From: Gemmatimonadaceae bacterium
GTDB lineage: Bacteria > Gemmatimonadota > Gemmatimonadetes > Gemmatimonadales > Gemmatimonadaceae
DNA length: 14,921 nucleotides
Direction of reading: 5' to 3'
NCBI GenBank assembly: GCA_019689955.1
Contig: JADGGM010000011.1
Location: 1-14,921, forward strand
The notes beneath the pieces are model-generated. The model was not told the origin of the DNA. It saw nothing but the letters and a program-made list of their open reading frames with translations, and did no database searches. Both the position numbers and the translations under genes were made by a program. Positions 43-14,921 of this stretch are shown piece after piece; the first letter of the stretch is position 1, and each line of letters starts with the position of its first letter.

Positions 43-180
43 CACCCGCTCCTGACGAAAAAAGACCGGCCCCCAGTCGTCGAGCACGATCGCCAGCGCG
101 ATCAGGAGCCCCACGGGCCAGAGCACCACCAGGCCGAGCACGGCGCCGCACAGGTCGAGCGCGCGCTTCCCCACCGTCAT
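43..180 (-). CDS. Initiating sugar-phosphate transferase (bacterial sugar transferase family), N-terminal fragment
   Basis: Only the first 46 codons are present; the 3' part is lost at the contig end where the adapter begins. The protein starts MTVGKRALDL, followed by a hydrophobic stretch (about residues 8-32) and then GPVFFRQERV. This is the N-terminal signature of the PF02397 sugar transferases (WcaJ/PglC type): a KRxxD entry, a membrane segment, and the conserved D-x-GPVFFRQ-x-RV motif. Family members transfer a sugar-1-phosphate from a nucleotide sugar to undecaprenyl phosphate at the inner membrane, the first committed step of polysaccharide assembly. The ATG shares the ATGA overlap (177-180) with the stop of the aminotransferase upstream, so translation is probably coupled. 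Sugar specificity cannot be read from this fragment. Confidence 0.88.
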
Positions 181-1541
181 CGCCGATACGTGCGAACGAC
201 GTCCAGCACCGCGGTGATCACGTCATCCACGTCGCGCCCGGTGAGGCGTGGGTTGAGCGGAAGGCTCAACATCCGCTCGAACGCCTCGTACGCCACCGGG
301 AAGTCGGTCGGGGTCCAGCCGTACCGATCCCGGTAGTACGGGTGTAGATGGACGGGGATGAAGTGCACCGACGTTCCGATGTTCCGTTGCGCGAGCTCGT
401 CGATGAACCGGTCGCGTCCGATGCGGAGCGCCTCGGGGCGCAGCCGCAGGACGTAGAGGTGCCACGCGTGCCGGACATCGGGGCGCTCCACGGGGAGCTC
501 GAGCGCGTCGCTCTCCCCGAAGGCGGCGTGGTACGCGGCCACCACCTCGCGCCTACGCGCGTCGAAGCGCTCCAGCTTGCGCAGCTGGCAGCGCCCCATG
601 GCGGCCTGGATGTCCGTCATGTTGTACTTGAAGCCGGGGGAGAGGATCTCGTAGCGCCAGCTCCCCCCGCGCTCGTAGCGGCGGAGGGCGTCGCGCGTCA
701 TGCCGTGCAGGCTCACCGGCCGCGCGCGCTCAAGGAACTCGGCGCTCCCGGTGAGCATCCCCCCCTCGGCCGTCGTGAGATTCTTCGTCGCGTAGAAGCT
801 GAACGCGGTCGGGTTCTCCCCCGCGCCGATCATGCGCCCGCGGTACCAGGCCGGGAGCGCGTGCGCCGCGTCCTCGATCACCGCGAGCCCGTGCCGCGCA
901 GCGATCGCCTCGATCGCGTCGAGGTCCGCGGGGTGCCCGCTGTAGTGCACGGCGATGATCGCCTTGGTGCGCGGCGTGATCGCCCGCTCGATCTCCACCG
1001 GGTCGATGTTCAGCGTGTCGGGCTCCACGTCGACGAGCACGGGGCGCGCGCCCACGTGCTCGATCACGTTCACCGTCGCCGCGAACGTCATCGGGGTGGT
1101 GATCACCTCGTCCCCCGCCCCGGTCCCCAGCGCGACGAGCGACGTGTGCAGCCCCGCCGTGCAGGAGTTGAGCGCCAGCGCGCCCTGCGCGCCGACGTAG
1201 TGCGCGAACTCCTGCTCGAAGCAGCGCGTCTTGGGACCCGTGGTGAGCCAGTCGGAACGCAGCGTGTCGACCACCTCGGTCACCTCCTCCTCCCCGATCA
1301 CCGGGGGGGAGAAGGGGAGAAACTCGGCGCGACGGATGTACCGACGGCTCGCCGGCACGACCACCCGGTCGACGACCGCCTCCTCACGGTAGGTGGCGAT
1401 CGGCGCGACCCGCTCCCCCGAGACGCGCGCCGGCGCGGGCGCCGCGGGCGCGGCCGACGCCGCCGCGACCTTCACCCGGGGGAGCACGTCGCCGGACCCA
1501 ACGGCGGTGGAACGGACCGGATTGGCTTCCGATGGCGGCAT
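177..1541 (-). CDS. DegT/DnrJ/EryC1/StrS family PLP-dependent sugar aminotransferase
   Basis: The 454-residue protein belongs to the DegT/StrS (ArnB/PseC/PglE-like) family, which transfers an amino group from glutamate to a nucleotide-linked 4-keto or 3-keto sugar. The core starts near residue 72 with FLPFSPPVIGEEE and DWLTTGPKTRCFE. NSCTAG (125-130) is the phosphate-binding region, VIEDAAHA (221-228) carries the cofactor aspartate, and FYATKNLTTAEGG (249-261) holds the Schiff-base lysine K253. HFIPVHLHPYY near the C-terminus is also typical. The family usually has about 370-390 residues; here about 66 extra N-terminal residues, rich in Ala, Pro and Val, precede the core. The ATG is supported by GGAG (1549-1552) seven bases upstream. 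A promoter lies at 1631-1659, and the gene overlaps the sugar transferase start by four bases. The exact sugar substrate is unknown. Confidence 0.93.
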   Translation of the reverse strand: MPPSEANPVRSTAVGSGDVLPRVKVAAASAAPAAPAPARVSGERVAPIATYREEAVVDRVVVPASRRYIRRAEFLPFSPPVIGEEEVTEVVDTLRSDWLTTGPKTRCFEQEFAHYVGAQGALALNSCTAGLHTSLVALGTGAGDEVITTPMTFAATVNVIEHVGARPVLVDVEPDTLNIDPVEIERAITPRTKAIIAVHYSGHPADLDAIEAIAARHGLAVIEDAAHALPAWYRGRMIGAGENPTAFSFYATKNLTTAEGGMLTGSAEFLERARPVSLHGMTRDALRRYERGGSWRYEILSPGFKYNMTDIQAAMGRCQLRKLERFDARRREVVAAYHAAFGESDALELPVERPDVRHAWHLYVLRLRPEALRIGRDRFIDELAQRNIGTSVHFIPVHLHPYYRDRYGWTPTDFPVAYEAFERMLSLPLNPRLTGRDVDDVITAVLDVVRTYRR

Positions 1542-1769: not shown

Positions 1770-2501
1770 TCAGGTGTCACAACGACCGAGCAGCGTGCCA
1801 GCGGGTCGGATGAACCCCACGTAGTGGGTGCACAGCACGGGGAGCGAGCTGAGGAGGGATGCGAGTGGCCACAGCCGCGGGGCGAGGGCGCGCGCGAGGG
1901 GCGGGGCGAGGGTGACGCGGCGGACGTGGATCTCGCAGTCCGGGAAGAGCGCGTCGAGCTCGCGGCGGCGCACGCCGCGCACGTCGGGGTTGCGCGGGTT
2001 GTCGGCGAAGAAGTCGTACCAGAGCACGATCCCGCCGGGGCGGAGGACGCGCACCATCTCGCGCGCGACGCGCTCGCGCATGCCGCGCTCGAGGATGGAG
2101 GTGAGCACGGTCGACTGCAGCACGACGTCGAAGGTGCCGGCGGCGAAGGGGAGCTCGGCGCCGCTCGCGACGGCGACGCGCACGGCCGCGGCGCACCGCG
2201 CGCGGGCTTCGGCGATGCGGTGCGCGAGGAGGTCCACGCCGACGAGGTGCTCGGGGCGCGCGCCCCACTGCACGAAGGCGCGCAGCCAGTGCCCCGTGCC
2301 GCACCCCACCTCGAGCACACGCAGCTCGTCGAGCGCATCGACGCCGGCGCGGCGGAGTGCGTCGAGCAGCCCGCGCTCGGCCCCCTGCACGATGAGCTGC
2401 TGCCCGCGCGCGAGCCACGAGTAGCGCGCGTCGTCGTGGCGCGCCTCGTAGGCGCGGCGGATGCGCGCTTCCTCGGTGCGCAGCCGCTCGGGCTCGCTCA
2501 C
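1770..2501 (-). CDS. Class I SAM-dependent methyltransferase
   Basis: The 243-residue protein has the Rossmann-type methyltransferase fold. Motif I is VLEVGCGTGHWL (62-73), the acidic residue after strand 2 is D90 in VGVDLL, and ELPFAAGTFDVVLQ is followed by VLRPGGIVLWYDFF (motif III region, as in Methyltransf_11/25 families). Such small-molecule methyltransferases in polysaccharide clusters O- or N-methylate a sugar; the acceptor is not predictable. The GTG start overlaps the stop of the upstream glycosyltransferase (GTGA, 2498-2501) and has GGAG eight bases upstream. It is the last gene of the five-gene overlapping unit and is followed by the promoter-bearing gap. The C-terminal third (about 190-243) is basic and hydrophobic and may contact the membrane, which is an inference. 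Confidence 0.88.
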   Translation of the reverse strand: MSEPERLRTEEARIRRAYEARHDDARYSWLARGQQLIVQGAERGLLDALRRAGVDALDELRVLEVGCGTGHWLRAFVQWGARPEHLVGVDLLAHRIAEARARCAAAVRVAVASGAELPFAAGTFDVVLQSTVLTSILERGMRERVAREMVRVLRPGGIVLWYDFFADNPRNPDVRGVRRRELDALFPDCEIHVRRVTLAPPLARALAPRLWPLASLLSSLPVLCTHYVGFIRPAGTLLGRCDT

Positions 2502-3721
2502 CGCGCCAGCTCCGCCTCGAGCGTGCGAATGAATCGCGCGGCGATCTCCGCGCGGTCGAAGTGCCGCTCCACCGCGCGCCGCCCGTTCGCTCCCAGCTCC
2601 GCGCGCAGCGCCGGCTGGTCGCGCAGCGTGCGCAGCGCCGCCGTGAGCCCGGCGATGTCTCCCGGCTCCACGACGATCCCGGCGCGATGCTCGCGCACCA
2701 CGTTCGCCGCTTCCCCCGTGGCGACGAGGACGACGGGGCGCCCGGTGGCCATCGCCTCGTACATCTTCGAGGGCACCGCGCCGGGGATGCCGAGCCCCAG
2801 CGGCACGACGAGGATGTCCGCCGCGGCGAGGAGCGGGGGGAGCGCGGCCGCGGGGCGCGGGTCGAGGAAGCGCACGCGGTCCCCGAGCCCGCGCGCCGCG
2901 GCGTCGGCCACGAGCGCGGCTTTGGTCGGGCCCTCGCCCATGAGCACGAGGTCCGGCCCGCCGGCGTCACCGCGCATCGCGTCGGCGGCATCGAGGAGCT
3001 GCCCCAACCCCTGTGCGATCCCGTGCAACCCGGCGTAGAGCGCGATGCACCGGCCGTTCGCGCCGAGCGTGGCGCGCGCCTCGGCGGTCGCGCGCTCGGG
3101 GCCGAACGCGGAGCACTCGACGCCGTTCGACAGATGGTAGGTGCGGCAGCTCGGGAAGCGCTCGGCGACGTTGGCGATGATCTCCCGGCTCTGCCCCGTG
3201 ACCATCCACGCGCGCCGGTAGCAGAACGCCTCGAGCCGCGCGCTCACGCGATGCACCATGCTCCCCTCGCGCACCACGCCGAGGCGCACGGCGCTCTCGG
3301 GCCAGAGGTCGGAGACGTTGAAGATCACGCGCGTGCGCTTGATCGCGCCGAGCCACGCCCCCGAAAGCCCGAGGAAGAGCGGCGGGCTCTCGACGAGCAG
3401 GTAGTCGGGGGAGTCGAGCTCCACCGTGCCGTACACCGCCGAGGAGAGCACGAAGGAGAAGTAGTTCGCCAGGCGGCGCGCGTAGTCGGTCTTCTGCGTG
3501 GGGTAGATGAACGTGCGCAGCACCTGGACGCCGTCGATCACCTCACGCCGCGTGAGGCCGCCGTACCCCGGGTGCACTCGCCCCAGCGGGTAGGTGGGCA
3601 TCGCGGTGAGCACCGTCACCTCGTGCCCCGCGCGGAGAAAGTGGCTGGCGAGGCTCGCCAGCCGCCGCTGCGGCGCGCCGATCTCCGGCGGGTAGTACTG
3701 CGTGAGCATGGCGAGCTTCAC
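2498..3721 (-). CDS. WbuB-like GT4 family glycosyltransferase
   Basis: The 407-residue protein is a retaining GT-B glycosyltransferase of the WbuB/WcaI type. It begins (V)KLAMLTQYYPPEIGAPQ, the classic start of this family. NVSDLWPESAVRLG (135-148), LYAGLHGIAQGLGQLL (228-243) and GIPGAVPSKMYEAMATGRPV (311-330) follow, the last containing the donor-binding acidic motif near E322. The open frame continues far upstream, but homology starts at the GTG at 3721-3719. That start lies in the GTGA overlap with the CapK-like gene, so the shorter start is chosen. There is no Shine-Dalgarno sequence, consistent with coupling. Members transfer a sugar or amino sugar to a lipid-linked intermediate on the cytoplasmic face of the membrane. 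Confidence 0.92.
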   Translation of the reverse strand: MKLAMLTQYYPPEIGAPQRRLASLASHFLRAGHEVTVLTAMPTYPLGRVHPGYGGLTRREVIDGVQVLRTFIYPTQKTDYARRLANYFSFVLSSAVYGTVELDSPDYLLVESPPLFLGLSGAWLGAIKRTRVIFNVSDLWPESAVRLGVVREGSMVHRVSARLEAFCYRRAWMVTGQSREIIANVAERFPSCRTYHLSNGVECSAFGPERATAEARATLGANGRCIALYAGLHGIAQGLGQLLDAADAMRGDAGGPDLVLMGEGPTKAALVADAAARGLGDRVRFLDPRPAAALPPLLAAADILVVPLGLGIPGAVPSKMYEAMATGRPVVLVATGEAANVVREHRAGIVVEPGDIAGLTAALRTLRDQPALRAELGANGRRAVERHFDRAEIAARFIRTLEAELAR

Positions 3722-5160
3722 GGGGCACGCTCGCGGCTCGCGGTGACGTCGCCCGCGCGAAGACGGGCGCGCTCGTCCGGGGAGAGCGCGCACACCACGG
3801 CGCGCAGCTTCCCGTTGGACGTGCGCGGGATCGCGGACACCGGCTCGAGCACCACGTCCACGTCGCCCATCCGGTCGCGGATGCGCGCGGCGATCGCCTC
3901 GCCGTCGGCCGGGGTGAAGCCGGCCGCGGGAACGTAGCGCACGCGCACGCGGTCGAGCGCTTCCTGGATGATCTGCGCCTCGTGCACGGGGAGGCGGCTC
4001 TTGAACACCGGGTCCATGCGCCCCACCGCGCGCCCGTCGCGCGTGTAGAGCACGTCGTCCGCGCGCCCCTCGATGCGGGCGAGGCGCGGGAGGGTGCGGC
4101 CGCACGGGCAGGGCGCATCGCTCGGGTCGAGCGCGGCGCGGTCGCCGACGCGATAGCGCACGAGGGGCATGTCGGCGTTGACGAGCCCCGTGCACACGAG
4201 GTCCCCCGTCTCGCCGGGGGGGACGGGCGCGTCACCGTCGAGGAGCTCCACGACGCCGGCGTCGGGCCAGAGGTGGAGGCGGTTGTGCTCGCACTCGCCG
4301 GCCGCGGTCACGATCTCCGCCATCCCGTACGTCTCGCGGAGCGGGGCGCCGAAGGCGCGCTCGATGGCCTCGCGCTGGTGCGGGAGCACGGGCTCGGCGT
4401 TGGCGATCACCACCGCGAGGCCGAGCGCGCGCAGCGACCCCGGCTCCGCCCCCTGGGCGAGCGTGTGGAGCGCGGACGTGTAGCCGAAGAGGTAGCGGAT
4501 GCGATGCTGACGCAGCGCGGTCACGTAGTGCGGGATGAGGTCGGGCGCGAGGTGATACGAGGAGAGGTAGAGCTGGTGCAGCGCCGGGTTCCACACCCAG
4601 AAGGGAGGCGTGCGATGCGCCACGGGGACCACGAGCTGTCCGCCGAGGATCGCCCACCGGTCGTGGCGGCTCACCCCGTACCACCGCCGCCAGCGCGCCT
4701 CGAAGAGCGCATACCAGGTGCGCACCGTCGCGCGGCTCCACCAGAGATCGAGCGAGGTGCCGGTGGTGCCGCTCGTGTGCTCGTGGAACATCGTGCGCGG
4801 GTTACAGTCGTCGGCGAGGAAGGCGCGCGGGGCGGTGCGCACGGCCTCCTTCTCCAGCACGGGCCAGTTGGCGAGGAGCTCCCACGAGGCCCGGTCCCCG
4901 CGCCGCCGGCGCGCGGCCCATTGGTCGCGGTAGTAGGGGACGCGCGTGGCCGCGCGCTCGAGCAGTTGGGCGAGCCGCTCCTCGCGCCACGCGGCCCACT
5001 GCGCGCTGGACCACCGCTCGCGCGCGAGCGCGGCGTCGGCGAGGCGGTCCGTCTCGGGACCGTAGCGCCAGGCGCGGAGATACCACCCCCGTGCCCCGGC
5101 GGCGGCGGACCGCACGACCGGGGGCATGGCGTGATAGAAGCGCAGCGTCCACGCATTCAC
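3718..5160 (-). CDS. CapK/PaaK-like adenylate-forming enzyme (phenylacetate-CoA ligase family)
   Basis: The 480-residue protein is an AMP-forming acyl-adenylate enzyme of the PaaK/CapK branch. TSGTTGTSLDLWW (129-141) is the nucleotide-binding P-loop, ETYGMAE (276-282) the A5-like motif, MPLVRYRVGD (331-340) the A7/A8 region, and CPCGR (351-355) the Cys motif common in PaaK homologues. NGK near the C-terminus fits the catalytic A10 lysine. Homologues are frequent in capsule and exopolysaccharide loci, where they are often called CapK; their acyl substrate is usually unknown. The GTG start sits in a GTGA overlap (5157-5160) with the amidotransferase stop, so a longer upstream reading of the frame is rejected. 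It may activate a carboxylate used to acylate an amino sugar, which is an inference. Confidence 0.88.
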   Translation of the reverse strand: MNAWTLRFYHAMPPVVRSAAAGARGWYLRAWRYGPETDRLADAALARERWSSAQWAAWREERLAQLLERAATRVPYYRDQWAARRRRGDRASWELLANWPVLEKEAVRTAPRAFLADDCNPRTMFHEHTSGTTGTSLDLWWSRATVRTWYALFEARWRRWYGVSRHDRWAILGGQLVVPVAHRTPPFWVWNPALHQLYLSSYHLAPDLIPHYVTALRQHRIRYLFGYTSALHTLAQGAEPGSLRALGLAVVIANAEPVLPHQREAIERAFGAPLRETYGMAEIVTAAGECEHNRLHLWPDAGVVELLDGDAPVPPGETGDLVCTGLVNADMPLVRYRVGDRAALDPSDAPCPCGRTLPRLARIEGRADDVLYTRDGRAVGRMDPVFKSRLPVHEAQIIQEALDRVRVRYVPAAGFTPADGEAIAARIRDRMGDVDVVLEPVSAIPRTSNGKLRAVVCALSPDERARLRAGDVTASRERAP

Positions 5161-7043
5161 GGCCGTGCGACCGAAGCGGCGGCAGGGGTCCACGAGTCGA
5201 CGCACGCCTGATGCCAGAGCGCGATCACCACGAGCTGCCGCACCAGCGCGTCGGTGCGGCGGTCGCCGGCGAGGAACGCGCTCGTGAGGCGCACGAGCGC
5301 GCGGCGGTCGAAGGGGCCGTCGCACACGGGGCGCGTGTCCGGGAGGTCGTTCACGATGGCGCGGAGCTCCGGGACCTGCCGGAGGTACGTGCTCCACGGC
5401 ACCCCGAACCCCCATTTGCGTCCGGCCAGCACGCTCGCCGGGAGGCGATCGCCGAGCGCCGACCGGAGGAGCGGCTTGCTCTCGCGCCCCGAGAGGAGCT
5501 GGCGCGACGGCGCGGCGGCGAGGCGCTCGACGATGCGATAGTCGAGGAACGGCACCCGGCACTCGATCGACGCGCCCATGGTCATCCGGTCGTTCCGGTC
5601 GAGGAGGGAGCAGAGGAAGGTGTGCTGGTCGAGGTACATCGCCTGCCGCATCGGCTCATCGGGGTACACGCGCGCGGCTTCGGCGAGCAGCTGTGCGCGG
5701 TACGCCGCCGCTTCCCCCACCGGCACGCCGAGCGCGTGGAGGTCCGCGGGGAGCACTTCGCAAGCGTTGTAGAGGACGAACGCCTCGCGCGATCCGAGCC
5801 CGAGCATCCGCGCGAGCTTGCGCGCCCGGCCGCGCCCGAGGCGCGCGAGGAGGCGGCGCGGCACGAGGGCGCGCGCGGCGTCGAAGAGGCGGGGGGAGCG
5901 GAGCGGGCGATAGCGCACGTAGCCGCCGAGCGTCTCGTCGGCCCCCTCCCCCGAGAGGAGCACCGTGACGCGCGGCTTCGCGTGCTCGGAGATCGCCCAC
6001 AGGTGGAGCTCGTTCCCGTGGGCGAGCGGCTCATCGTTCAGCCACGTCGCCCGCAGGAGGCGCGGGAGGAGCTCCGCTTCCGCGACGCGAATGTCGTGGT
6101 ACACGAGCCCCCACCGGTCGGCCACCTGGCGGGCGAGGGGCGCCTCGTCGAACCCCGCCTCGCCGAACGACACGGTGAAGCTGTGGACCCCGCCCCCGGC
6201 CTGCGCGGCGAGCGATGCGGCGACGGTACCCGAGTCGAGGCCGCCGCTCAGGAGCACGCCGACGGGGACGTCGCTGATGCGCCGCAGGCGCACGGCGTCG
6301 TCGAAGGTGGCGCGATACCAGGGCGACAGCGCGTCGTCCGCCGGCGCGGCGCGCAGCTCGGCGACGCGCTCGGCCAGGCGCCACCACCGGCGCGTCCGCA
6401 CCGCGCCGTCGCGCCAGAGGAGGTAGTGGCCGGGGAGGAGGCGGCGCACGCCGGCGTAGGGGGTCGCTTCCCCGGCGACGTACCGGAAGCAGACGAGCTC
6501 CTCCCACGCCGCGGGGTCGAGGCGCGGCACGACGCCGCCGGCGAACAGCGCCTTCTGCTCAGAGGCGAAGCGCAAGGTGTCGCCGTCGTGCACGTAGTAC
6601 AGCGGCTTGATCCCCAGCCGGTCGCGCGCGAGAAAGAGCGTCCGCTCGCGCGAGTCCCAGATCGCGATGGCGAACATCCCGTTGAGCTGGTCGAGCATCG
6701 CGGGCCCGTGGGCCGCGTAGAGCTGGAGCACCACTTCCGTGTCGCTCCGCGAGCGGAAGGTGTGCCCCCGCCCCTCGAGAGCACTCCGCAGCTCGGCCGC
6801 GTTGTACACCTCGCCGTTGTAGACGATGTGATAGCGCCCGTCGTCGGTGGACATCGGCATGTGGCCGCGCGGGGAAAGGTCCACGATCGCCAACCGGCGC
6901 GAGCCCAGCCCGACCCCGGGCTCCACGTGCTGCCCGCCGTCGTCGGGGCCGCGGTGGAGGATGATGTCGCACATCGCGGCCAGCTCGGCGGGGTCGATGG
7001 ACGCGGCCGGGTCGCGATGGACGATGCCGCAGATGCCGCACAT
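5157..7043 (-). CDS. asnB: Asparagine synthase (glutamine-hydrolysing)-like amidotransferase
   Basis: This 628-residue AsnB-type protein is full length for the family. The N-terminal Ntn glutaminase domain begins MCGICGI, with the nucleophile Cys2, RGPDDGG (31-37), RLAIVDLS (50-57) and YNGEVYN (75-81). The C-terminal synthetase domain has the PP-loop SGGLDSG (266-272), SGEGADE (364-370) and ECRVPFLDYR. In polysaccharide clusters such enzymes often amidate a carboxyl group such as a uronic acid rather than making asparagine (known for WbpS-like proteins; inferred here). The ATG overlaps the preceding glycosyltransferase stop as TGATG (1-base overlap at 7043) and is preceded by a strong purine-rich GGAGGGAGGGG. 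The open frame extends further upstream, but MCGICG fixes the start because Cys2 must become N-terminal. Confidence 0.95.
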   Translation of the reverse strand: MCGICGIVHRDPAASIDPAELAAMCDIILHRGPDDGGQHVEPGVGLGSRRLAIVDLSPRGHMPMSTDDGRYHIVYNGEVYNAAELRSALEGRGHTFRSRSDTEVVLQLYAAHGPAMLDQLNGMFAIAIWDSRERTLFLARDRLGIKPLYYVHDGDTLRFASEQKALFAGGVVPRLDPAAWEELVCFRYVAGEATPYAGVRRLLPGHYLLWRDGAVRTRRWWRLAERVAELRAAPADDALSPWYRATFDDAVRLRRISDVPVGVLLSGGLDSGTVAASLAAQAGGGVHSFTVSFGEAGFDEAPLARQVADRWGLVYHDIRVAEAELLPRLLRATWLNDEPLAHGNELHLWAISEHAKPRVTVLLSGEGADETLGGYVRYRPLRSPRLFDAARALVPRRLLARLGRGRARKLARMLGLGSREAFVLYNACEVLPADLHALGVPVGEAAAYRAQLLAEAARVYPDEPMRQAMYLDQHTFLCSLLDRNDRMTMGASIECRVPFLDYRIVERLAAAPSRQLLSGRESKPLLRSALGDRLPASVLAGRKWGFGVPWSTYLRQVPELRAIVNDLPDTRPVCDGPFDRRALVRLTSAFLAGDRRTDALVRQLVVIALWHQACVDSWTPAAASVARP

Positions 7044-8257
7044 CAGCCCCTCCCTCCGCGCCACACCGGGGCGAGCTCGTCGAACAGCGCGTCCCACTGC
7101 GCGCGTACCTGCTCCCACGACGACCGCTCGGCCATCGCACGCCCGTTCCGCGAGAGGCGCGCGGCGAGCCCCGGTTCGTCGAGGATGCGCAGGACCGCGG
7201 CGGCCATGGCCGCGTCGTCGCCGTCGGGGACGAGGAGGCCCGTGTCGCCATCGCGGATGAGGTGCGAGACGCCCCCCACGCGGGTGGAGACCACCGGGAG
7301 CCCCATGGCCGCGGCCTCGATCACGGCGACGGGGGTGTTGTCGATGTGGTTCGTGCTGAGGAACACGTCGGCGGCATCCCCCTCGCGCCGCTTGGCCTCG
7401 GGGCCGAGGAAGCCGGGGAAGCGCACGGCATCGGCGAGGCCCAGTCGCTCCGCGTCGGCTCGCACCTCGGCGAGCATCCCGTTGTCCTGCCCCCCCATGA
7501 CCAGCGTGGCGTCGGGGCGCACGACGCGGACACGCGCCAGCACCGCGAGCGCCATCCGCGGATTGTAGATCGAGTGGAAGCTGCGCATCCAGAAGAGGCG
7601 CGGCGCGGGACGCTCGCGGACCCGGAACGGGTAGGCGGCGAGGTCGATCACGTTCGGGATCACGCGCGCCCGGAAGCCGTACGGCACCACCGCCTCGGCA
7701 AGGAAGCTCGACGGCGCCACAATCGCGTCCGCGCGGGCGAGGACGCGGCGCGTCCAGCGCGGGTAGCGGGCGAAGAACTCCGGCATCGCTCCCCCCCGCA
7801 GATGGAGGACGACGGCGCGGCGATGCCATCGGCCGAGCAGGGTGGCCACGTCCTCGACCACGAAGCTTGGCCCCCCGTAGCACTGGATCATCAAAACGTC
7901 GACCGACTGTCGCCACCGCGCCACAGTGACCGCGATGTCGGCGAGGCGCGCGTAGCGGCTGGCCGCGTGGGACACGGCGCGGACGTCGTAGCCGGAGTTG
8001 CCGAAGAGGTCGGCGAGGATCTCCCCCTGCGTGGTCACGCGCCCCGGGTTGCGCCCTACGAGGGGGCCGACCACGCCAAGGCGGGGCCGGGGCGCGCGCG
8101 AGGCGAGCTCGGGCGCAGGCACGACGGCGCGAGGGCGCGGACCACTCGTGCGGCCGCGCGGGGGAGATGCTGGTGGATCGCCGAGCACAGTGTCGAGGCG
8201 GCGGTTGGGGGAACGCTGGTGCGGCCGCACTTCGGTCGCTGCCGCGGCGACATCCAA
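7043..8257 (-). CDS. GT4 family glycosyltransferase (start uncertain)
   Basis: The protein has up to 404 residues and is a GT-B, GT4-type glycosyltransferase. RPRLGVVGPLVGRNPGRVTTQGE starts the recognisable N-domain near residue 58. HLRGGAMPEFF, the APSSFLAEAVV and RVIPNVIDL linker, and SFHSIYNPRMAL follow. NHIDNTPVAVIEAAAMGLPVVST contains the donor-site E-x7-type motif, and GLLVPDGDDAAM follows it. The first ~57 residues are Ala/Pro/Arg-rich and not conserved. The longest start is a TTG at 8257, preceded only by a weak GAGAG. GTG codons at residues 10, 24 and 46 are alternatives, so the N-terminus is unreliable. It is the first gene of the overlapping unit and faces the divergent control region. 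Confidence 0.85.
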   Translation of the reverse strand: MDVAAAATEVRPHQRSPNRRLDTVLGDPPASPPRGRTSGPRPRAVVPAPELASRAPRPRLGVVGPLVGRNPGRVTTQGEILADLFGNSGYDVRAVSHAASRYARLADIAVTVARWRQSVDVLMIQCYGGPSFVVEDVATLLGRWHRRAVVLHLRGGAMPEFFARYPRWTRRVLARADAIVAPSSFLAEAVVPYGFRARVIPNVIDLAAYPFRVRERPAPRLFWMRSFHSIYNPRMALAVLARVRVVRPDATLVMGGQDNGMLAEVRADAERLGLADAVRFPGFLGPEAKRREGDAADVFLSTNHIDNTPVAVIEAAAMGLPVVSTRVGGVSHLIRDGDTGLLVPDGDDAAMAAAVLRILDEPGLAARLSRNGRAMAERSSWEQVRAQWDALFDELAPVWRGGRG

Positions 8258-8424: not shown

Positions 8425-8526
8425 GGGGCCGCGACAAGGGCAAACCCGGCGAAAGCCGGGGACGCAAAGCCAACGAAGCTACCGCACGCTTGCCGTGCCA
8501 CGCTGGTCGGGTTGCCGAACGGATCC
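8425..8526 (+). promoter_or_regulatory. Cyclic di-GMP-I (GEMM-I) riboswitch upstream of Big_2 beta-helix lipoprotein
   Basis: The element carries the GEMM-I core. GACAAGGGCAAACC (8433-8446) leads into a helix capped by a GAAA tetraloop (CCCGGC 8445-8450 with GCCGGG 8455-8460). GACGCAAAGCC follows (8461-8471), then a second helix (GCAC 8484-8487 with GTGC 8495-8498) and the closing GGTCGGGTTGCCG. GGGGCCG (8425-8431) can pair imperfectly with CGGATCC (8520-8526) as P1. The base matching the ligand-contacting G20 of the Vibrio Vc2 aptamer (middle G of GGG, 8439) is G, favouring c-di-GMP over 3',3'-cGAMP; the A47 equivalent in GCAAAGC is also kept. P1 ends about 6 bases before a GGGGGTAGGG Shine-Dalgarno tract and 17 bases before the ATG, so control of translation is likely. 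No intrinsic terminator is visible. Confidence 0.93.
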
Positions 8527-8543
8527 TTCACCGGGGGTAGGGC

Positions 8544-11500
8544 ATGCGTGCCTTCTTTCGTGTGAGTCCACCCGCCGTGCTGCTCCTTCCGTTCACGGTG
8601 GTCGGTTGTCTCGATACGGCTGCGCCGACGCTCGATGCACCGCATTCCGTGGCGTCGGTGATGGTACAGCCGGCAGCGGCCAGCGTGAACGTCGGCAAGC
8701 ACGTTTCGCTGAGTGCGACGGTGTTGGATCCGTCGGGCGCGCCGGTGTCGGGGCAGGCGGTGACGTGGACGGTGCAGGACAGCGCGGTTGCCTCGGTGAG
8801 CCCCGACGGCGATGTCACGGCCAAGCGCGTCGGCTCGACGCTCGTCACGGCCGTCAGCGCCAACAAGTCCGGGACGGCGACGATCACCGTCCTCCCTCCC
8901 CCAGTCGCGTCCATCGACCTCTCGCCGACGAGCGTGACGATCGCCATCGGCGACGCCATCACGCTCGTCGCCACCCCGCACGATGAGACCGGGGCCGCGG
9001 TGACGGGGCGCCCGGCCACGTGGGCGAGCGCCGATCCGACCATCGCGACCGTGTCGGCCAGCGGGAGGGTGACGGGGGTGAAGACCGGGACCACGAAGAT
9101 CACCGTCACGATCGACGGCGTGAGCGCGAGCGCCACCGTGACCGTGGCGACGGCGGCCGTCGCCACGGTGTCGGTGAGCCCGACCAGCGTGTCGATCGCG
9201 CCGGGCGCCACGACCCAGCTCGCCGCGACCACGCGCGACGCGCGCGGCGCGGTGCTCACCGGGCGCGCGATCTCGTGGAGCAGCTCGAACACCGCCGTGG
9301 CGACGGTGTCGTCGAGCGGGGTGGTGACGGGGGTCGCGGAAGGGTCGGCGACGATCACCGCGACGAGCGAAGGGAAGCACGGGACCAGCACGGTGTCGGT
9401 GACGAAGGCGCCGGTGGCGAGCGTCAAGGTGTCGCCGACCAGCGTGTCGCTCCAGGCCGGCGCCACGGCGCAGCTCACGGCGACCCCGCTCGACCAGAGC
9501 GGGCAGGCGCTCACCGGGCGGACGATCACCTGGTCGACCGGGAGCACCGCCGTCGCCACGGTGTCCTCGACCGGTCTCGTAAAGGGGGTGGCGCAGGGGA
9601 CGACGACGATCACCGCGTACTGCGAGGGGAAGAGCGCGCCGGTGGCCGTGACGGTGACGGCGACGGTCGTGCCCGTGGCCACGGTGTCGGTGTCGCCGGG
9701 GGCGGACACGCTGATCGTGGGGCAGAGCGGGCAGTTCACCGCCACGCCGAAGGATGGGAGCGGGAACGCGCTCTCGGGGCGCACGATCACCTGGACGTCG
9801 TCGAACACCGGGATCGCGACGGTGACGAGCACGGGCGCGGTGAGGGCCGTGGCCGCGGGGACGGCGACGATCACGGCGACGAGCGAGGGGAAGAGCGGGA
9901 CCGCGACGCTCCTCGTGAAGCCGGTGCCGGTGGCCGCGGTGTCGGTGACGCCGAGCAGCGCGAGCGTGCAGATGGGGAGCACGGTGCAGCTCTCGGCCAG
10001 GACGAGCGACGCGTCGGGGAACACGCTCACCGGGCGCACGGTCACGTGGAGCACGAGCAACAGCGGCGTGGCCATGGTGTCCGGGAGCGGGCTCGTGACC
10101 GCGACCGGGGCCGGCTCGGCGACGATCACGGCGACGAGCGAAGGGAAGTCGGGCACCGCATCGATCACCGTCGCCTCGACGAGCACGTCGCACAGCGGGT
10201 GGTACGTCTCGCCGAACGGATCGAGCAGCGGGAGCGGGAGCAGCAGCTCGCCGTGGAGCCTCGCGACCGCGTTCGCCGGCGGCAACGGCAAGATCCAGCC
10301 CGGCGACACCGTGTGGCTGCGCGGCGGGACTTACCGCGGGAGCTTCCACCCGCAGACCCGCGGGACGGCCAGCGCGCCGATCATCTTCCGCCAGTATCCC
10401 GGCGAGCGCGCCACGATCGACGGCAACCTCTCCGTCGACGGCCAGTACACCTGGTTCTGGGGCTTCGAGCTCACCAGCTCCACGACGAGCAACACCAACC
10501 TCGAAGCGATCACCTCGCACTGCCCGGGGTGCCGCTTCATCAACCTCGTCATCCACGACGAGTCGGGGAGCGGGCTCGGGCTCTGGTCCGAGGGGCCGGA
10601 CCAGGAAGCGTACGGCAACATCCTCTACAACATTGGCTACTACGCGCCCGGCGCCACGGAGTGGGCGCACGGGATCTACGCGCAGAACCAGACCGGTACC
10701 AAGCGGCTCATCAACAACCTGCTGTTCGACACGTTCGGCTACGGGTTCCACATCTACGGCTCGGACGCCGCGTACCTGCGCAACTTCACGATCGACGGCA
10801 ACCTGGTGGTGAACAGCGGGCTGGGCTCGGGGATGGACTACCAGATCGGCGGGAACGTGCCGGTGGAGAACCTCACCTTCACGCACAACATGAGCTACCG
10901 GAGCCCGGGGCAGCGCTACAACACCGCCCGCATCGGCTACGGGTGGGACAGCCCCGTGAGCTCCGGGGCGACCGTGACCGACAATTACTTCGTCGGGCAG
11001 GTGATGATCTCCCACTGGAGCAGCCTCACCTTCCAGCGGAACACCGTGATCGACCCGAGCGGCGCTCTGATCACGTTGGAGCTGGCCAGCGGGCAGAGCA
11101 CGACCACCGGCTCGTGGGGATCGAACAACTACTTCAAGACCACGAGCGGCTCGCCGTTCGCGCTGGTGAACTCCTCGGGCGGGCACGGCTACACGCTGAG
11201 CGGGTGGCAGCAGGCCACCGGCCTCGATGGGAGCAGCACGCTCACGAACGCGACGCCGACGAGCACCAAGGTCGTCGTGCAGCCGAACCAGTACGAGGCC
11301 GGGCGGGCGAACGTGATCATCTTCAACTGGGGGCACCAGGGGTCGGTGAGCGTGGATCTCTCCGGCGTGCTGAAGCCGGGGGAGGCCTACGAGGTGCGGA
11401 ACGCGCAGAACTTCTTTGGCGCACCGGTGACCTCGGCGACGTACGGCGGGGGGACGGTGACGCTTCCGATCACGAGCATCACGCCGCCGACGTCGATCGT

Positions 11501-11561
11501 CGGGAAGACCGGGGCCAGCACCGGGACGGAGCTCAACGTGTATGTGGTGCTCAAGAAATAG
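8544..11561 (+). CDS. Lipoprotein with six Big_2 Ig-like domains and a C-terminal right-handed parallel beta-helix
   Basis: The protein has 1005 residues. A signal peptide ends in the lipobox VVGC, with Cys22 as the lipidated residue. Six bacterial Ig-like (Big_2) domains follow at roughly 36-117, 120-201, 206-287, 290-373, 377-458 and 462-543, each with a 'GRxxTW...VATVS..G.V..V..G.A.ITATSEGKSGTA' core. From about 550 comes GWYVSPNGSSSGS and a PGDTVWLRGGTYRG entry into a right-handed beta-helix, as in pectate-lyase or chondroitinase-B-like proteins. A separate beta-rich C-terminal part (about 910-1005) ends NVYVVLKK. This resembles a surface-anchored stalk presenting a polysaccharide-binding or polysaccharide-modifying head; catalysis is not demonstrated. 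Cys360 interrupts the ATSEGK motif of domain 4, and a CPGC pair is at 660-663. It is preceded by the c-di-GMP riboswitch and GGGGGTAGGG. Confidence 0.9.
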   Translation: MRAFFRVSPPAVLLLPFTVVGCLDTAAPTLDAPHSVASVMVQPAAASVNVGKHVSLSATVLDPSGAPVSGQAVTWTVQDSAVASVSPDGDVTAKRVGSTLVTAVSANKSGTATITVLPPPVASIDLSPTSVTIAIGDAITLVATPHDETGAAVTGRPATWASADPTIATVSASGRVTGVKTGTTKITVTIDGVSASATVTVATAAVATVSVSPTSVSIAPGATTQLAATTRDARGAVLTGRAISWSSSNTAVATVSSSGVVTGVAEGSATITATSEGKHGTSTVSVTKAPVASVKVSPTSVSLQAGATAQLTATPLDQSGQALTGRTITWSTGSTAVATVSSTGLVKGVAQGTTTITAYCEGKSAPVAVTVTATVVPVATVSVSPGADTLIVGQSGQFTATPKDGSGNALSGRTITWTSSNTGIATVTSTGAVRAVAAGTATITATSEGKSGTATLLVKPVPVAAVSVTPSSASVQMGSTVQLSARTSDASGNTLTGRTVTWSTSNSGVAMVSGSGLVTATGAGSATITATSEGKSGTASITVASTSTSHSGWYVSPNGSSSGSGSSSSPWSLATAFAGGNGKIQPGDTVWLRGGTYRGSFHPQTRGTASAPIIFRQYPGERATIDGNLSVDGQYTWFWGFELTSSTTSNTNLEAITSHCPGCRFINLVIHDESGSGLGLWSEGPDQEAYGNILYNIGYYAPGATEWAHGIYAQNQTGTKRLINNLLFDTFGYGFHIYGSDAAYLRNFTIDGNLVVNSGLGSGMDYQIGGNVPVENLTFTHNMSYRSPGQRYNTARIGYGWDSPVSSGATVTDNYFVGQVMISHWSSLTFQRNTVIDPSGALITLELASGQSTTTGSWGSNNYFKTTSGSPFALVNSSGGHGYTLSGWQQATGLDGSSTLTNATPTSTKVVVQPNQYEAGRANVIIFNWGHQGSVSVDLSGVLKPGEAYEVRNAQNFFGAPVTSATYGGGTVTLPITSITPPTSIVGKTGASTGTELNVYVVLKK
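8649..10172 (+). repeat. Tandem array of six ~250-base Big_2-coding units
   Basis: Six in-frame units of about 250-258 bases each encode one Ig-like domain. Phrases such as GGGCGCACGATCACCTGGA and GCGACGAGCGAAGGGAAG recur at the DNA level, and the similarity is strongest from unit 3 on. Units 1 and 2 are the most diverged. This pattern fits growth by unequal recombination. Confidence 0.85.
10189..10796 (+). repeat. Beta-helix-coding direct repeat, copy A
   Basis: This stretch matches 14314-14921 in the same orientation and codon phase (offset 4125). The first ~274 bases differ at two sites (10400 and 10415). Bases 10463-10660 differ at about 34 sites by eye, and 10661-10796 at one (10697). 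It encodes the entry and first rungs of the beta-helix. The match runs to the window edge, so the real repeat is probably longer. Confidence 0.95.
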
Positions 11562-11694
11562 GGTAGTGATTCCGCGCGATTGGTGATAGCTTCTTGGGCG
11601 AAGTACCGCGGCCGCATCCGAGGTTCCGGGTACGGCCGCCGCGCTTCGCCGCTGCTCCACCCCTCGCCGCCGGTCGTCGCGGCCCTCCTCGGTC
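11562..11694 (+). other. Intergenic spacer with GC-rich dyad
   Basis: The 133-base gap between the beta-helix gene and the GT-C gene holds a perfect 7-bp inverted repeat (GCGGCCG 11608-11614 with CGGCCGC 11633-11639, 18-base loop). It has no T tract, so a terminator is not supported and read-through into the next gene is possible. No promoter is evident. Confidence 0.35.
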
Positions 11695-12993
11695 ATGGCC
11701 ACCCCCCTGCACCAGGCTCGCACCACCGCCGAACAGTACGCGCTCGTGAGTCCGACCCTTGCGGCCGTCGTCGGGTCGATCGTGGCGACGCTCGCGTTCT
11801 GGCTCGTCGTGCGCCCCTCGTTCCTCTCGGTCACGCCCGAGCACTTCGCGAGCCTCAACACCGATTACGTGGGGCAGGTGTCGGCGCTGACCGGCGGACA
11901 CGTCGGCTTCAACGTCCGCTACCCGCCCGGCTTCCCGCTCCTGCTCGCGGGGGTGTACCACAGTGCGCGGTTCCTGCACCTTCCGCTTGGCGTCGGCGTG
12001 ACGGTCTTCGTTCTCACGTGCCGCGGCCTCGAGTGCACGCTGGTGTATCGCCTCGCCCGAATGGCGTGGGACACGGGGCCGGCACTGGTCGCGACGCTCC
12101 TGTGGGCCACGTACCTCCTTCCGCTGTGGCTGACGACGTACCCGAGCCCGGAGACGCCGTTCATCCCCGCGCTCATCGGAGGGGTGCTGGTGTACTGGCG
12201 CGCCATCCAGGCGCGACGGCACGCGCGCATGCTTCTCTTCGGCGCGGGGGTGCTCGTGGGGATCGCGATGCTCATCCGGCCGATCGCGCTCGGGCTGGGT
12301 GGGCTCCTGGCGCTGCTGCTCTGGTTCTTCCTGCGCGATGTCGCGCGCGGCCGGCGCCTCGCGCTCGGCGCGCTCCTCGTCGCCGGGAACCTGCTCGCCG
12401 TGCTCCCGTGGGAGATCTGGGCGTACCAGCACGTGGGGCGAGTGATCCCGCTCAGCACCGGCGGCGTGCCGAGCATGGTCGATGGGCTGACGTACGCCGT
12501 GGACCCGCAGGACCATCGCCATGTGCACGTGCCGGCGGACGTGGAGGCGCTGCAGCGGGAGATCCTCGCGCGGCAGGACGTGCTGCGGACCCAGTCGTTC
12601 GGCACGGTCATGTCGTACCTGCGGGAGGAGCTCGCTCGCCGCCCCGCCGCCATGGCGAAATTCGTCGCGCTCAAGGCGGCGAGCAGTTGGTACGCCACCG
12701 ACAGCTCGCGCTACGACCGGTTCGTGCTGCTCGTTCAGGCCATCTATCTGCCCATCATCCTGATCGGGACGTGGAGCGCGTGGCGGCGCGGGGGGTGGAC
12801 GCGGCGCTTCGCCATCCTCGCGTGGGGCACCGCGCTCTGGTTCTGGGCGATGACCATCCTCGTCCTCTCGATCGCGCGCTACATGACCCCTGCCCTCGGA
12901 CTGTTGTTCGCGCTCGTCCCCGGAGCGCTCGTGGACGTCCGACGGCTCAACCTTCGTTTTCGCCGCCGCGCGCTCGTGACGACTGCCGACTGA
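11695..12993 (+). CDS. Multi-pass GT-C type membrane glycosyltransferase (PMT_2/ArnT-like)
   Basis: The 432-residue polytopic protein has about nine to ten hydrophobic segments, for example near residues 21-39, 97-109, 128-147, 157-168, 180-194, 198-213, 222-238, 344-360, 372-392 and 398-413. After the first segment, a loop with NTDYVGQ and VRYPPGFPLLLAG fits the acidic first loop and Y-P-P motif of the PMT_2/GT39/GT83 membrane glycosyltransferases. ARYMTPALGLLFALVPG at the C-terminus is also typical. Such enzymes take sugars from polyprenyl-phosphate donors on the periplasmic side and attach them to lipids, glycans or proteins. The ATG at 11695 lacks a clear ribosome binding site, so a slightly later start (GTG, residue 18) is possible. 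It lies between the two riboswitch-controlled genes and may be co-transcribed with the first. Confidence 0.82.
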   Translation: MATPLHQARTTAEQYALVSPTLAAVVGSIVATLAFWLVVRPSFLSVTPEHFASLNTDYVGQVSALTGGHVGFNVRYPPGFPLLLAGVYHSARFLHLPLGVGVTVFVLTCRGLECTLVYRLARMAWDTGPALVATLLWATYLLPLWLTTYPSPETPFIPALIGGVLVYWRAIQARRHARMLLFGAGVLVGIAMLIRPIALGLGGLLALLLWFFLRDVARGRRLALGALLVAGNLLAVLPWEIWAYQHVGRVIPLSTGGVPSMVDGLTYAVDPQDHRHVHVPADVEALQREILARQDVLRTQSFGTVMSYLREELARRPAAMAKFVALKAASSWYATDSSRYDRFVLLVQAIYLPIILIGTWSAWRRGGWTRRFAILAWGTALWFWAMTILVLSIARYMTPALGLLFALVPGALVDVRRLNLRFRRRALVTTAD

Positions 12994-13081
12994 CGCGCAA
13001 GAGCGATGGGTTCACGCGCGGCGACAACAGATGGTCTGCCTGACCGAACAGTCAACAGGCGGGAAAGCCCCATCTCTTTGC

Positions 13082-13110
13082 TTGAGCGATTCGCCTGTGT
13101 CCCTAATACT
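13082..13110 (+). promoter_or_regulatory. Weak candidate promoter for riboswitch 2 transcript
   Basis: TTGAGC (13082-13087) and AATACT (13105-13110) are 17 bases apart, each about 4/6 to consensus. The stretch is AT-richer than its surroundings. Transcription would start near 13117, roughly 95 bases before the aptamer, similar to the arrangement upstream of riboswitch 1. Confidence 0.35.
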
Positions 13111-13119
13111 ATGGGCACA
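13096..13119 (+). promoter_or_regulatory. Dyad overlapping the candidate -10 (possible operator)
   Basis: TGTG-T-CCC and GGGCACA form a 7-bp inverted repeat with one bulged T around a 9-base centre, TAATACTAT. The centre covers the candidate -10 box, a position typical for a repressor site. No cognate regulator is in the window. Confidence 0.3.
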
Positions 13120-13210
13120 ATTCGCTGCCGAGCTGTCCAATTCGGGTTTGGGCACCAACGCAGCGACGAACCGAGGCGACGGAAGGACGATCGCATGGGC
13201 CCGGAGTGGC

Positions 13211-13312
13211 CCGTCGCGACAAGGGCAAACCCGGCGAAAGCCGGTGACGCAAAGCTACGAGGCTACCGCACCCTGCACGTTGGGGTGCCACGCTCGTCGG
13301 GCTGCCGGACGG
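13211..13312 (+). promoter_or_regulatory. Second cyclic di-GMP-I (GEMM-I) riboswitch
   Basis: The core is nearly identical to the first element for about 38 bases: GCGACAAGGGCAAAC, CCGGC-GAAA-GCCGG (13231-13244), GACGCAAAGC. It ends CGTCGGGCTGCCGG. P1 is clean: CCGTC (13211-13215) pairs with GACGG (13308-13312). The second helix has changed sequence but kept pairing (GCACCC 13268-13273 with GGGTGC 13283-13288, against GCAC/GTGC in copy 1), which is covariation in favour of a functional RNA. The ligand-contacting G (13224) is kept. The aptamer ends 22 bases before the ATG. Unlike copy 1, no purine-rich ribosome binding site follows, so the output mechanism is unclear. Confidence 0.93.
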
Positions 13313-13334
13313 ACGCTACAACCCGGTACCCTCT

Positions 13335-14921
13335 ATGCGGATCACCCGATCTCCGTGGGCGCTCGCCCTCGCTCCCCTCACTCTCCTCTCCTTCACCGCC
13401 TGCTCCGACACCAAAACCCCTGATCCCACCGCTCCCGCCCCGTCGCTCGACGTCGTGGCGGGGGCGATCAGCATGCCGGTGATCTCCGGGATCACGGTCG
13501 GTTCGGGGCGCAAGTACGTCGTCGGCTCCACGGGGATGGCCGTGGGCTCCAAGCTGTTCACAGACCGGAGCTACGCCGCGAAGTCGCCCCTCCCCTCCAT
13601 GGTCGCCGGCGCGGCGTACATCATGGCGGCGGACGACGACAAGGCGGCCAAGCCCGGAAGCAGCAACTTCCTGTCGTTCGATGTGGACCGCGACGTGACG
13701 GTCTACGTGGCGCACGATGCGCGGGTCGCGGTGCCCGATTGGCTCCGCTCCTCCTTCCAGGACGCGGGCACCGCGTTCTATGCGACCGACTACTACAGCA
13801 CGGGCGAGAAGCGCCTGCTGTTCAAGAAGAACTTCCCCAAGGGGCACGTGACGCTGGGGAGCAACGTCCCCGCGAACTACGACGTCGCCGGGAACATGTA
13901 CACGGTGATGGTCGTGAGCGCCTCCGGCTCCTCGGGCGGGTCGGGGGGCAGCACGGGGATCACGGTCGCGCTCAAGACGCCGTCGGACAGCGCCACGGTG
14001 TCGGGCACGGTGCGGCTGGAGGCAACCGCGTCGAGCCCCGCGGGGATCGACCGCGTGCAGTTCCTGGTCGACGGGAAGGCGGTGAGCCCCACCGAGCGGG
14101 CCGCGCCCTACACCGGCTCGTGGAACACGACCACGTTCGCTGACGGGAACCACACGCTCACCGTCGTCGCGACCGACTCGGCCGGGAAGAGCAACTCGAT
14201 GTCGGCGCTGGTGAAGGTCAAGAACGGCAGCGGCAGCAGCGACAGTACCGGGAGCGGCAGCAGCGGCGGCAGCAGCGGCGGCGGCAGCAGCAGCGGTGGC
14301 AGCAGCAGCGGCCCGCACAGCGGGTGGTACGTCTCGCCGAACGGATCGAGCAGCGGGAGCGGGAGCAGCAGCTCGCCGTGGAGCCTCGCGACCGCGTTCG
14401 CCGGCGGCAACGGCAAGATCCAGCCCGGCGACACCGTGTGGCTGCGCGGCGGGACTTACCGCGGGAGCTTCCACCCGCAGACCCGCGGGACGGCCAGCGC
14501 GCCGATCATCTTCCGCCAGTATCCTGGCGAGCGCGCCACCATCGACGGCAACCTCTCCGTCGACGGCCAGTACACCTGGTTCTGGGGGATGGAGCTCACC
14601 AACAGCAGCACGAGCACGACGAATCTGGAAGCCGTGACCTCGCACTGCCCCGGCTGCCGGTTCATCAACATGGTGATCCACGACGCCTCGGGGAGCGGGC
14701 TCGGGCTCTGGTCCGAAGGGCCTGACCAGGAAGCGTACGGCAACATCCTCTACAACGTCGGCTACTATGCGCCCGGAGCGAATCAGTGGGCGCACGGGAT
14801 CTACGCGCAGAACCAGACCGGCACCAAGCGGCTCATCAACAACCTGCTGTTCGACACGTTCGGCTACGGGTTCCACATCTACGGCTCGGACGCCGCGTAC
14901 CTGCGCAACTTCACGATCGAC
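13335..14921 (+). CDS. Second lipoprotein: unassigned beta-rich domain, Big_7-like Ig domain, Ser/Gly linker and right-handed beta-helix (3' truncated)
   Basis: 529 codons are open to the window edge without a stop. MRITRSPWALALAPLTLLSFTAC is a signal peptide with lipobox-like FTAC (Cys23). Residues ~45-195 form a domain I cannot name, containing NFLSFDVDRDVTVYVAHDAR and PDWLRSSF, similar in style to beta-sandwich accessory modules of carbohydrate-active proteins. Residues ~207-296 match the Big_7 type Ig domain (VDGKAV, APYTGSWNTTTFADGNHTLTVVATDSAG). Residues 298-326 are a Ser/Gly linker. From 328 the protein joins the same beta-helix as the first lipoprotein (HSGWYVSPNGSSSGS). Its start lies 22 bases after the second riboswitch. 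No Shine-Dalgarno sequence is visible, but the signal peptide supports this ATG. It probably acts at the cell surface on a glycan, which is an inference. Confidence 0.88.
   Translation, partial: MRITRSPWALALAPLTLLSFTACSDTKTPDPTAPAPSLDVVAGAISMPVISGITVGSGRKYVVGSTGMAVGSKLFTDRSYAAKSPLPSMVAGAAYIMAADDDKAAKPGSSNFLSFDVDRDVTVYVAHDARVAVPDWLRSSFQDAGTAFYATDYYSTGEKRLLFKKNFPKGHVTLGSNVPANYDVAGNMYTVMVVSASGSSGGSGGSTGITVALKTPSDSATVSGTVRLEATASSPAGIDRVQFLVDGKAVSPTERAAPYTGSWNTTTFADGNHTLTVVATDSAGKSNSMSALVKVKNGSGSSDSTGSGSSGGSSGGGSSSGGSSSGPHSGWYVSPNGSSSGSGSSSSPWSLATAFAGGNGKIQPGDTVWLRGGTYRGSFHPQTRGTASAPIIFRQYPGERATIDGNLSVDGQYTWFWGMELTNSSTSTTNLEAVTSHCPGCRFINMVIHDASGSGLGLWSEGPDQEAYGNILYNVGYYAPGANQWAHGIYAQNQTGTKRLINNLLFDTFGYGFHIYGSDAAYLRNFTID
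14226..14312 (+). repeat. GGC/AGC-type simple repeat encoding Ser/Gly linker
   Basis: About 29 codons are almost only GGC, AGC and close variants, giving a flexible Gly/Ser linker between the Ig domain and the beta-helix. Trinucleotide-type repetition in frame allows length change without frameshift. The codons are interrupted by GAC AGT ACC near the start. Confidence 0.85.
14314..14921 (+). repeat. Beta-helix-coding direct repeat, copy B (runs off window)
   Basis: This is the partner of 10189-10796. Identity begins exactly at the junction between the Ser/Gly linker and the beta-helix, so the boundary coincides with a domain boundary. The last 136 bases before the window end differ from copy A at one position, which could explain why the contig stops in or after this point. 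Confidence 0.95.

Follow-up and report, generated by a model that had tools for sequence, protein, structure and literature searches.

Why would a bacterium place two riboswitches for one second messenger ahead of two lipoprotein genes that share a single head on different stalks? This question is raised by the window, the whole stretch of 14,921 nucleotides analysed here from a Gemmatimonadaceae bacterium (assembly GCA_019689955.1, contig JADGGM010000011.1), in which cyclic di-GMP (c-di-GMP) class I riboswitch aptamers precede two genes, designated A and B. The explanation to which we give slightly better than even credence is that A and B are a c-di-GMP-switched lipoprotein pair whose shared beta-helix head binds or retains the cell's own polysaccharide and is kept matched by gene conversion. 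The two separate riboswitches would make the synthesis of both outer-surface lipoproteins follow c-di-GMP, and each protein would present the same head to the polysaccharide of the adjoining gene cluster. When c-di-GMP rises, A and B would be produced together with the matrix. A, with its head on a plain immunoglobulin (Ig)-type spacer, would tether the polysaccharide to the cell, and B, with its head behind a carbohydrate-binding module (CBM)-like domain and one Ig domain, may link it to a second glycan, like RbmC and Bap1 in Vibrio cholerae. Gene conversion between the paralogues would keep the heads matched while stalks and leaders remain separate, because, we propose, the two heads have to suit a single polysaccharide, which varies from lineage to lineage.

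A covariance-model search with Rfam RF01051 (gathering score 35) detected both aptamers over model positions 1-87 of 87, at 74 and 69 bits. An earlier sequence-only reading had described two intact cores lying within about 25 bases of the lipoprotein gene starts, and both points were confirmed: the first ATG stands 24 bases after aptamer A (8544) and 25 bases after aptamer B (13335). The window's genome (G000, of which the window is contig C401) contained four RF01051 matches in 3.76 Mb (88.7% complete), whereas 14 control genomes contained none; two aptamers inside 4.9 kb are therefore no chance event, and chance or false aptamers were ruled out by these counts and the scores. The base that we take to be the equivalent of G20 in Vc2 numbering is the c-di-GMP-type G in both window aptamers, and it was invariant across 32 aligned aptamers. 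This agrees with the earlier proposal that A and B answer to the same second messenger. Specificity for cyclic GMP-AMP (cGAMP) appears to be ruled out by the same base; a G20A class I aptamer with cGAMP bound is cited in PMC6274999. Placement of the second ligand-contact base (Vc2 C92) was given up because the search pattern may catch the wrong C and because six protease leaders have T in place of the first C in the 3' GCC. These six leaders (G000:C735, G001:C49, G002:C123, G003:C95, G004:C33:178646 and G005:C135) carry GTCG in the closing 3' strand where the other aptamers of the genus have GCCG, at a strongly conserved position.

The N-terminal halves of the two proteins proved to be unrelated, as had been read from the sequence. 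Pfam assigned Big_2 in six stretches and Beta_helix to gene A, and Big_7 to gene B, leaving the N-terminal part of B without assignment; BLAST found no match between stalk A and stalk B. The fold predicted for the unassigned stalk-B domain resembles that of a GH2 glucuronidase C-terminal domain. Both N-termini show lipobox-cysteine signals (..TVVGC-L in A and ..SFTAC-S in B, judged by eye and by a home-made rule). Over the 200 residues that B retains, the heads are 95% identical in amino acids and 94% in DNA. The near identity that had been claimed thus holds for 44% of the head, as the reading frame of gene B stops inside it at the contig end.

The heads are matched within lineages. Both stalk types occurred in four lineages, namely the window, database contigs of 79,241 and 122,594 bases, and a clade of G005, G001 and a contig of 50,735 bases; same-contig pairs among database proteins were inferred from equally long contigs within the best 120 of 642 and the best 120 of 1006 matches. 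On the contig of 122,594 bases, the unassigned domain of stalk B is preceded by a ricin-type lectin. Stalks and leaders cluster by gene, whereas heads cluster by lineage: between lineages the stalks are 44-54% (A) or 40-56% (B; 187 residues for the ricin variant) identical, and head A is 78-95% identical to head B of the same genome or contig, compared with 51-61% when A heads are set against each other across lineages. The tree, built from 32 heads, interleaved A and B, and the approximately unbiased (AU) test rejected monophyly of the A heads (p 0.0006) and of the B heads (p 6e-8). P0047, which had been cut wrongly, and the 143-residue W_G002A were dropped before tree building; nor did the tree include the 51-residue ends of G004A and G002, a G004 head from a different contig or further heads of the listing. 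Of 198 columns covered by all four pairs, 136 had A equal to B in all four, compared with 87-93 when partners were rotated. Four of ten same-contig or same-genome pairs were mutual best matches among about 193 heads (the window's own best match being judged over the 199 residues present, with copies of the same proteins set aside), and three of the ten form two sister groups inside one clade. One of the four pairs joins the head of P0012, a protein with a ricin-B lectin, to the A head P0023, whose contig has the same length; the two are 85% alike, and a third head is close at 83%. P0002 has a stalk 92% identical to the window's stalk and a head only 73% identical. A ricin-B lectin also stands ahead of the head in P0007, P0009 and P0035, and in P0012 it precedes the stalk-B domain as well.

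Identical tracts point to gene conversion between heads, as judged from the DNA. Window heads A and B share an identical run of 203 nucleotides (nt) at their left edge, and head A shares one of 126 nt with a third head on contig C685 of the same genome; neither length was reached in 5000 codon-order permutations. A similar mosaic was seen in protein windows of the pairs P0006/P0004 and P0023/P0012. The third head (G000:C685) was ruled out as the part that gene B lacks: it comes with a linker of its own and, where both sequences exist, is only 83% identical to head B. G000:C12 gained no support as the start of the third-head gene from the start of its relative P0122. In the window, identity begins sharply at the head start, which would also be expected if a head cassette had simply been copied once or twice by recent duplication or domain shuffling, without selection for matching and with riboswitches as the usual lipoprotein leaders. 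Class I leaders are indeed common ahead of lipoprotein genes in this family, and three unmatched pairs, given below, fit such a history too. Yet the stalk and leader types predate the species split, four lineages nevertheless have matched heads on dissimilar stalks, and patches of 100% identity within diverged heads require repeated exchange; we consider plain duplication improbable. Merging of reads from similar paralogues, which would make the identical tracts and head B chimeric, is very improbable. It would suit a window contig that starts adapter-like and ends in head B, G002 and G004 contigs that end in heads, and a G000 assembly of 751 contigs, but stalk B, its leader and the A/B pair with matched heads recur in other assemblies (G005, G001 and the contigs of 79,241, 122,594 and 50,735 bases). 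The contig start itself (window 1-45) resembles what we take to be Nextera/Tn5 mosaic-end read-through (frame +1 ..GVGDVYKRQ), an adapter artefact outside the genome.

What the head does was approached through its fold. The AlphaFold2 model of head A had a pLDDT of 95.3 and a pTM of 0.94, and a structure search with this predicted model returned resemblances to polysaccharide lyases, alginate epimerases and V. cholerae RbmB. Profile matches, partial only, were to PL6-type alginate lyases and a rhamnogalacturonan lyase. E92, H121, H159 and Y162 were invariant in 58/58 heads and H186 was present in 56/58. All of this would suit enzymes: lyases, hydrolases or epimerases, tethered at the surface, that trim or modify the exopolysaccharide of their own cell in response to c-di-GMP. 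We hold such an activity to be possible, if somewhat unlikely; in that event one copy might act near the cell and the other be targeted by its CBM-like or lectin domain, an arrangement we regard as equally tentative. Structural alignments with RbmB, PL6 alginate lyases, Pel9A and AlgE C5-epimerases from the PDB gave 11-21% identity, and the known catalytic motifs of these enzymes were not found in, or not placeable on, the heads. The catalytic motif of AlgE-type mannuronan C5-epimerases is DPH(E), and none of the 58 heads contains DPH. The hallmark of PL6 is a catalytic Lys/Arg pair with a Ca site on the beta-helix, and no Lys was conserved at the 85% level in the 58 heads, in a comparison without residue-level structural alignment. 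With partial profile matches, no DPH and no conserved Lys, we do not claim membership of PL6 or AlgE for the head. We lean towards a head that binds or retains the cell's own polysaccharide rather than one that acts on it as an enzyme. The sequence-only reading had seen one glycan-facing module displayed through two partners; lineage-matched heads, the lyase- or epimerase-type fold and the GH2-like domain or ricin-type lectin on stalk B, for which a glycan-binding role is plausible, are consistent with it.

The candidate ligand is suggested by the neighbourhood. Polysaccharide-type genes of kinds typical of exopolysaccharide clusters diverge upstream of gene A (Table 1), in line with the polysaccharide operon reported earlier. 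The asparagine-synthase-like gene among them resembles XrtA-type exopolysaccharide amidotransferases, with a score under that model's cut-off. The PMT_2-type gene that separates A and B was not found at that place in G001 and G005.

Table 1. Positions of the riboswitches, lipoprotein genes, heads and neighbouring genes in the window.
Feature	Position	Strand	Basis or remark
c-di-GMP-I riboswitch aptamer of gene A	8429..8519	+	Rfam RF01051, 74 bits, E 2.8e-13
24-nt linker with putative Shine-Dalgarno region, gene A	8520..8543	+	CGGATCCT invariant in 5 A leaders
Gene A: lipoprotein, six Big_2 domains as stalk and beta-helix head, 1005 aa	8544..11561	+	
Head A: right-handed beta-helix and C-terminal beta domain	10197..11558	+	Pfam Beta_helix, AlphaFold2, fold matches
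c-di-GMP-I riboswitch aptamer of gene B	13214..13309	+	Rfam RF01051, 69 bits, E 4.6e-12
Gene B: lipoprotein, GH2-glucuronidase-C-terminal-like domain, Big_7 and head start, 529 aa	13335..14921	+	
Head B (first 200 residues)	14322..14921	+	First 203 nt same as head A
PMT_2-type membrane glycosyltransferase gene, between A and B	11695..12993	+	
GT4-type glycosyltransferase, divergent cluster	7043..8257	-	
Asparagine-synthase/amidotransferase-like gene	5157..7043	-	Start placed from TIGR01536 match
Open reading frame with AMP-ligase (phenylacetate-CoA-ligase-like) gene	3718..5562	-	True start internal
Open reading frame with WcaI-like glycosyltransferase	2498..4195	-	True start internal
Methyltransferase	1770..2501	-	
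DegT/DnrJ/EryC1/StrS sugar aminotransferase	177..1541	-	

A further-reaching reading, which we regard as speculative and rather unlikely, is one of matrix recognition: heads would be alike within a lineage and diverge between lineages in step with the adjoining exopolysaccharide cluster, so that cells bind or process the matrix of their own kind. Head and polysaccharide might then co-evolve, no less speculatively, like a lock and two copies of its key. If the match between head and polysaccharide is true, matrix type and kin adhesion would be predictable from the head in soil bacteria that are known largely from metagenomes. Matched heads on unmatched stalks also offer a testable handle on how matrix proteins stay specific to a changing polysaccharide.

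The layout recurs in relatives, as the sequence-only reading had anticipated. Among six genomes inferred to be of the same genus (Gemmatimonadaceae), stalk A was found in five and stalk B in three. A leader, stalk A and the head stood beside polysaccharide-type genes in G000, G002, G004 and G005 (genes of the relatives judged by eye). A and B shared one contig in G000 and G005, and in G005 leader-A-head and leader-B-head follow in tandem; in G001 the start of A lay on C168 and its end lay with B on C75, and in G002 and G004 A was present, broken inside the head by contig ends. In the wider survey of 60 genomes, with G000 included in both counts, RF01051 was present in 40 and the head in seven. 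From 118 candidates in genome contigs, 78 distinct head loci were kept, of which ten had a riboswitch within the examined flank and 68 had none. A universal link between riboswitch and head was ruled out by the 68. Nine of the ten carry Gemmatimonadetes, -daceae or -dales in their titles; the tenth, L077, is filed as Chloroflexi. The aptamer lay ahead of the head-bearing gene in seven (L075, L076, L077, L085, L087, L113 and L143); of the remaining three, L079 has it before a gene of another kind, L139 breaks off with its contig inside the gene that follows, and L135 has a broken frame. Divergent polysaccharide-type genes like those of the window were seen by eye at L085 and L077. L077 (VBIW01000031.1), with its riboswitch-stalk-head gene and Gemmatimonadaceae-like divergent genes, may be misbinned or transferred. 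An operon version of the pair was found at L113:7056-11401, where one riboswitch is followed by a short-stalk and a long-stalk gene, both with a head and 50% alike. The 17.8-kb stretch L087 holds three heads (3281-4690 +, 4739-6145 - and 10004-11416 +), one behind a riboswitch; in the gene after its second riboswitch no head was found.

Over the surveyed genomes, 119 aptamer matches gave 111 leaders after merging of tandem aptamers. These stood before 59 lipoprotein genes, 48 other genes and four genes cut by contig ends, and, together with the 68 head loci that lack a riboswitch, they partly bear out the refuting pattern named in the sequence-only reading, riboswitches linked to unrelated genes and beta-helix genes without them. 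The count used the home-made lipobox rule and not SignalP; it misses some lipoproteins recognised by eye, e.g. G007:C332, and the same rule picked 22 of 308 other genes of those stretches. In the 59 lipoprotein leaders, the start codon lay a median of 25 nt from the aptamer. STAS-like, pilin-like and response-regulator-like starts were seen by eye among the 48, and in G032:C425, G059:C3, G048:C34, G017:C87 and G024:C19 the riboswitch lies directly before a small STAS-like (anti-anti-sigma-type) gene, again by eye. G000 encodes seven GGDEF domains. Three tandem aptamers precede a single lipoprotein gene at G036:C3:4761-5163 (1049 aa) and at G036:C36:1983-2385 (at least 452 aa), and tandem pairs occur in G053 (C246, C176 and C1), G051:C17 and L135. 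An orphan riboswitch remains at G000:C735:4060-4150 (-) (L062), where the protease gene is gone and a decayed start lies between riboswitch and rplS. Its counterparts in G002, G004 and G005 consist of a leader and a lipoprotein gene (S8-subtilase/I9/PKD by Pfam in G004), followed by an rplS-like gene, with an rnhB-like gene too in G002 and G004 (names by eye).

The direction of the switch was examined by folding. In 12 of 125 aptamer flanks (the 119 matches less one too-short flank, plus seven flanks of named loci), the last aptamer bases double as the 5' side of a hairpin resembling a terminator, with at least five T in a row. A terminator on the aptamer's 3' strand therefore means an ON design, since ligand binding should prevent the hairpin. 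Aptamers with this transcriptional ON platform include G051:C62, G036:C24, G053:C184, G044:C96 and L077, and most end ..GCCGCCAGC. The head-linked L077 is thus among the 12, and the head-linked L113 has the same hairpin (z -6.7) with a weaker T-run. Downstream pairing of the 3' strand over the 125 flanks was 0.654, compared with 0.587 in shuffles (Wilcoxon p 0.003). A hairpin masking the Shine-Dalgarno region beat shuffles in G001A (z -3.1) and G002A (z -3.4) only. Because the linker is short, control in the genus, if any, is probably translational. We consider ON fairly probable as the direction in the window.

Several results weigh against the explanation that we favour. The five conserved Glu, His and Tyr residues of the head look, from their sequence pattern, as much like catalytic residues as like a binding site. 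In the window, downstream pairing of the aptamer 3' strand had a probability of 0.01 for A and 0.99 for B (p 0.2). The anti-Shine-Dalgarno hairpin was no better than shuffles in G005A (z -0.8; folded stretch starting one base inside GCC), G004A (-0.35), window A (0.2), window B (0.6), G001B (1.7) and G005B (2.2); transferred from the A orthologues to the window it is a weak hint only, as A and B both fail against shuffles. Head B is incomplete. Three of the ten pairs are unmatched (54%, 66% and 42%), and in the matched pair P0040/P0041 the stalks share Big_2 sequence. The longest run between head B and the third head was 44 nt, reached in 457 of 5000 permutations, and thus no tract; nor did the permutation test find a recent conversion tract in the A/B pairs of G005 and G001. 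G004, 98% complete, has A and no stalk B, no head was found in G003, and the 68 head loci without a riboswitch in the flank belong to the same side of the balance.

In the pair as we read it, a second messenger is wired twice by RNA to matched surface proteins. RbmC and Bap1 are secreted proteins rather than lipoproteins, and are controlled through VpsR and VpsT, not by riboswitches. Their closeness to A and B lies in the logic, a shared glycan-type module with differing partner domains, which makes them the closest working analogue. The parts differ: here they are a lipid anchor, an Ig spacer or a CBM- or lectin-bearing stalk, a beta-helix head in place of the shared beta-propeller, and RNA control. 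In the accessible part of PMC10102183 these V. cholerae biofilm adhesins combine a common domain that binds matrix polysaccharide with unlike environment-facing domains, as a 'double-sided tape', and no gene conversion that homogenises heads is described for them there. The Pfam matches of A and B include no beta-propeller or beta-prism, and the folded parts (stalk A excluded) are beta-helix and Ig- or GH2-C-terminal-like. We do not file the window pair as a member of the RbmC/Bap1 family.

GbpA of V. cholerae is a surface-attachment protein unrelated to the beta-helix head. Its gene is positively regulated by the class I riboswitch Vc1, according to what is accessible of PMC4744006; that system has one gene, one riboswitch and a transcription start 225 nt before the annotated start codon, compared with the 24-nt linker after the aptamer here. 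In Clostridioides difficile, c-di-GMP riboswitches control surface and adhesion genes (accessible parts of PMC6447587, PMC11477304 and PMC6200980). Those are Gram-positive surface proteins, and among the matches listed, as far as their accessible text goes, nothing concerns one head with two stalks. The outer-membrane adhesins bab, hom and alpA of Helicobacter pylori are paralogues studied for gene conversion, as here; riboswitches, or separate stalk lineages with one shared head, are absent from the accessible text of the matches listed and are not known for these adhesins. Searches of the open-access literature found no study of a c-di-GMP riboswitch in Gemmatimonadetes or Gemmatimonadota, and this system was undescribed among the matches listed for Gemmatimonadetes with cyclic di-GMP, biofilm or lipoprotein. 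Taken singly, the parts (riboswitch-controlled adhesins, Ig stalks, beta-helix heads) are known; two riboswitch-stalk lineages that carry one homogenised head are, as far as these searches go, new.
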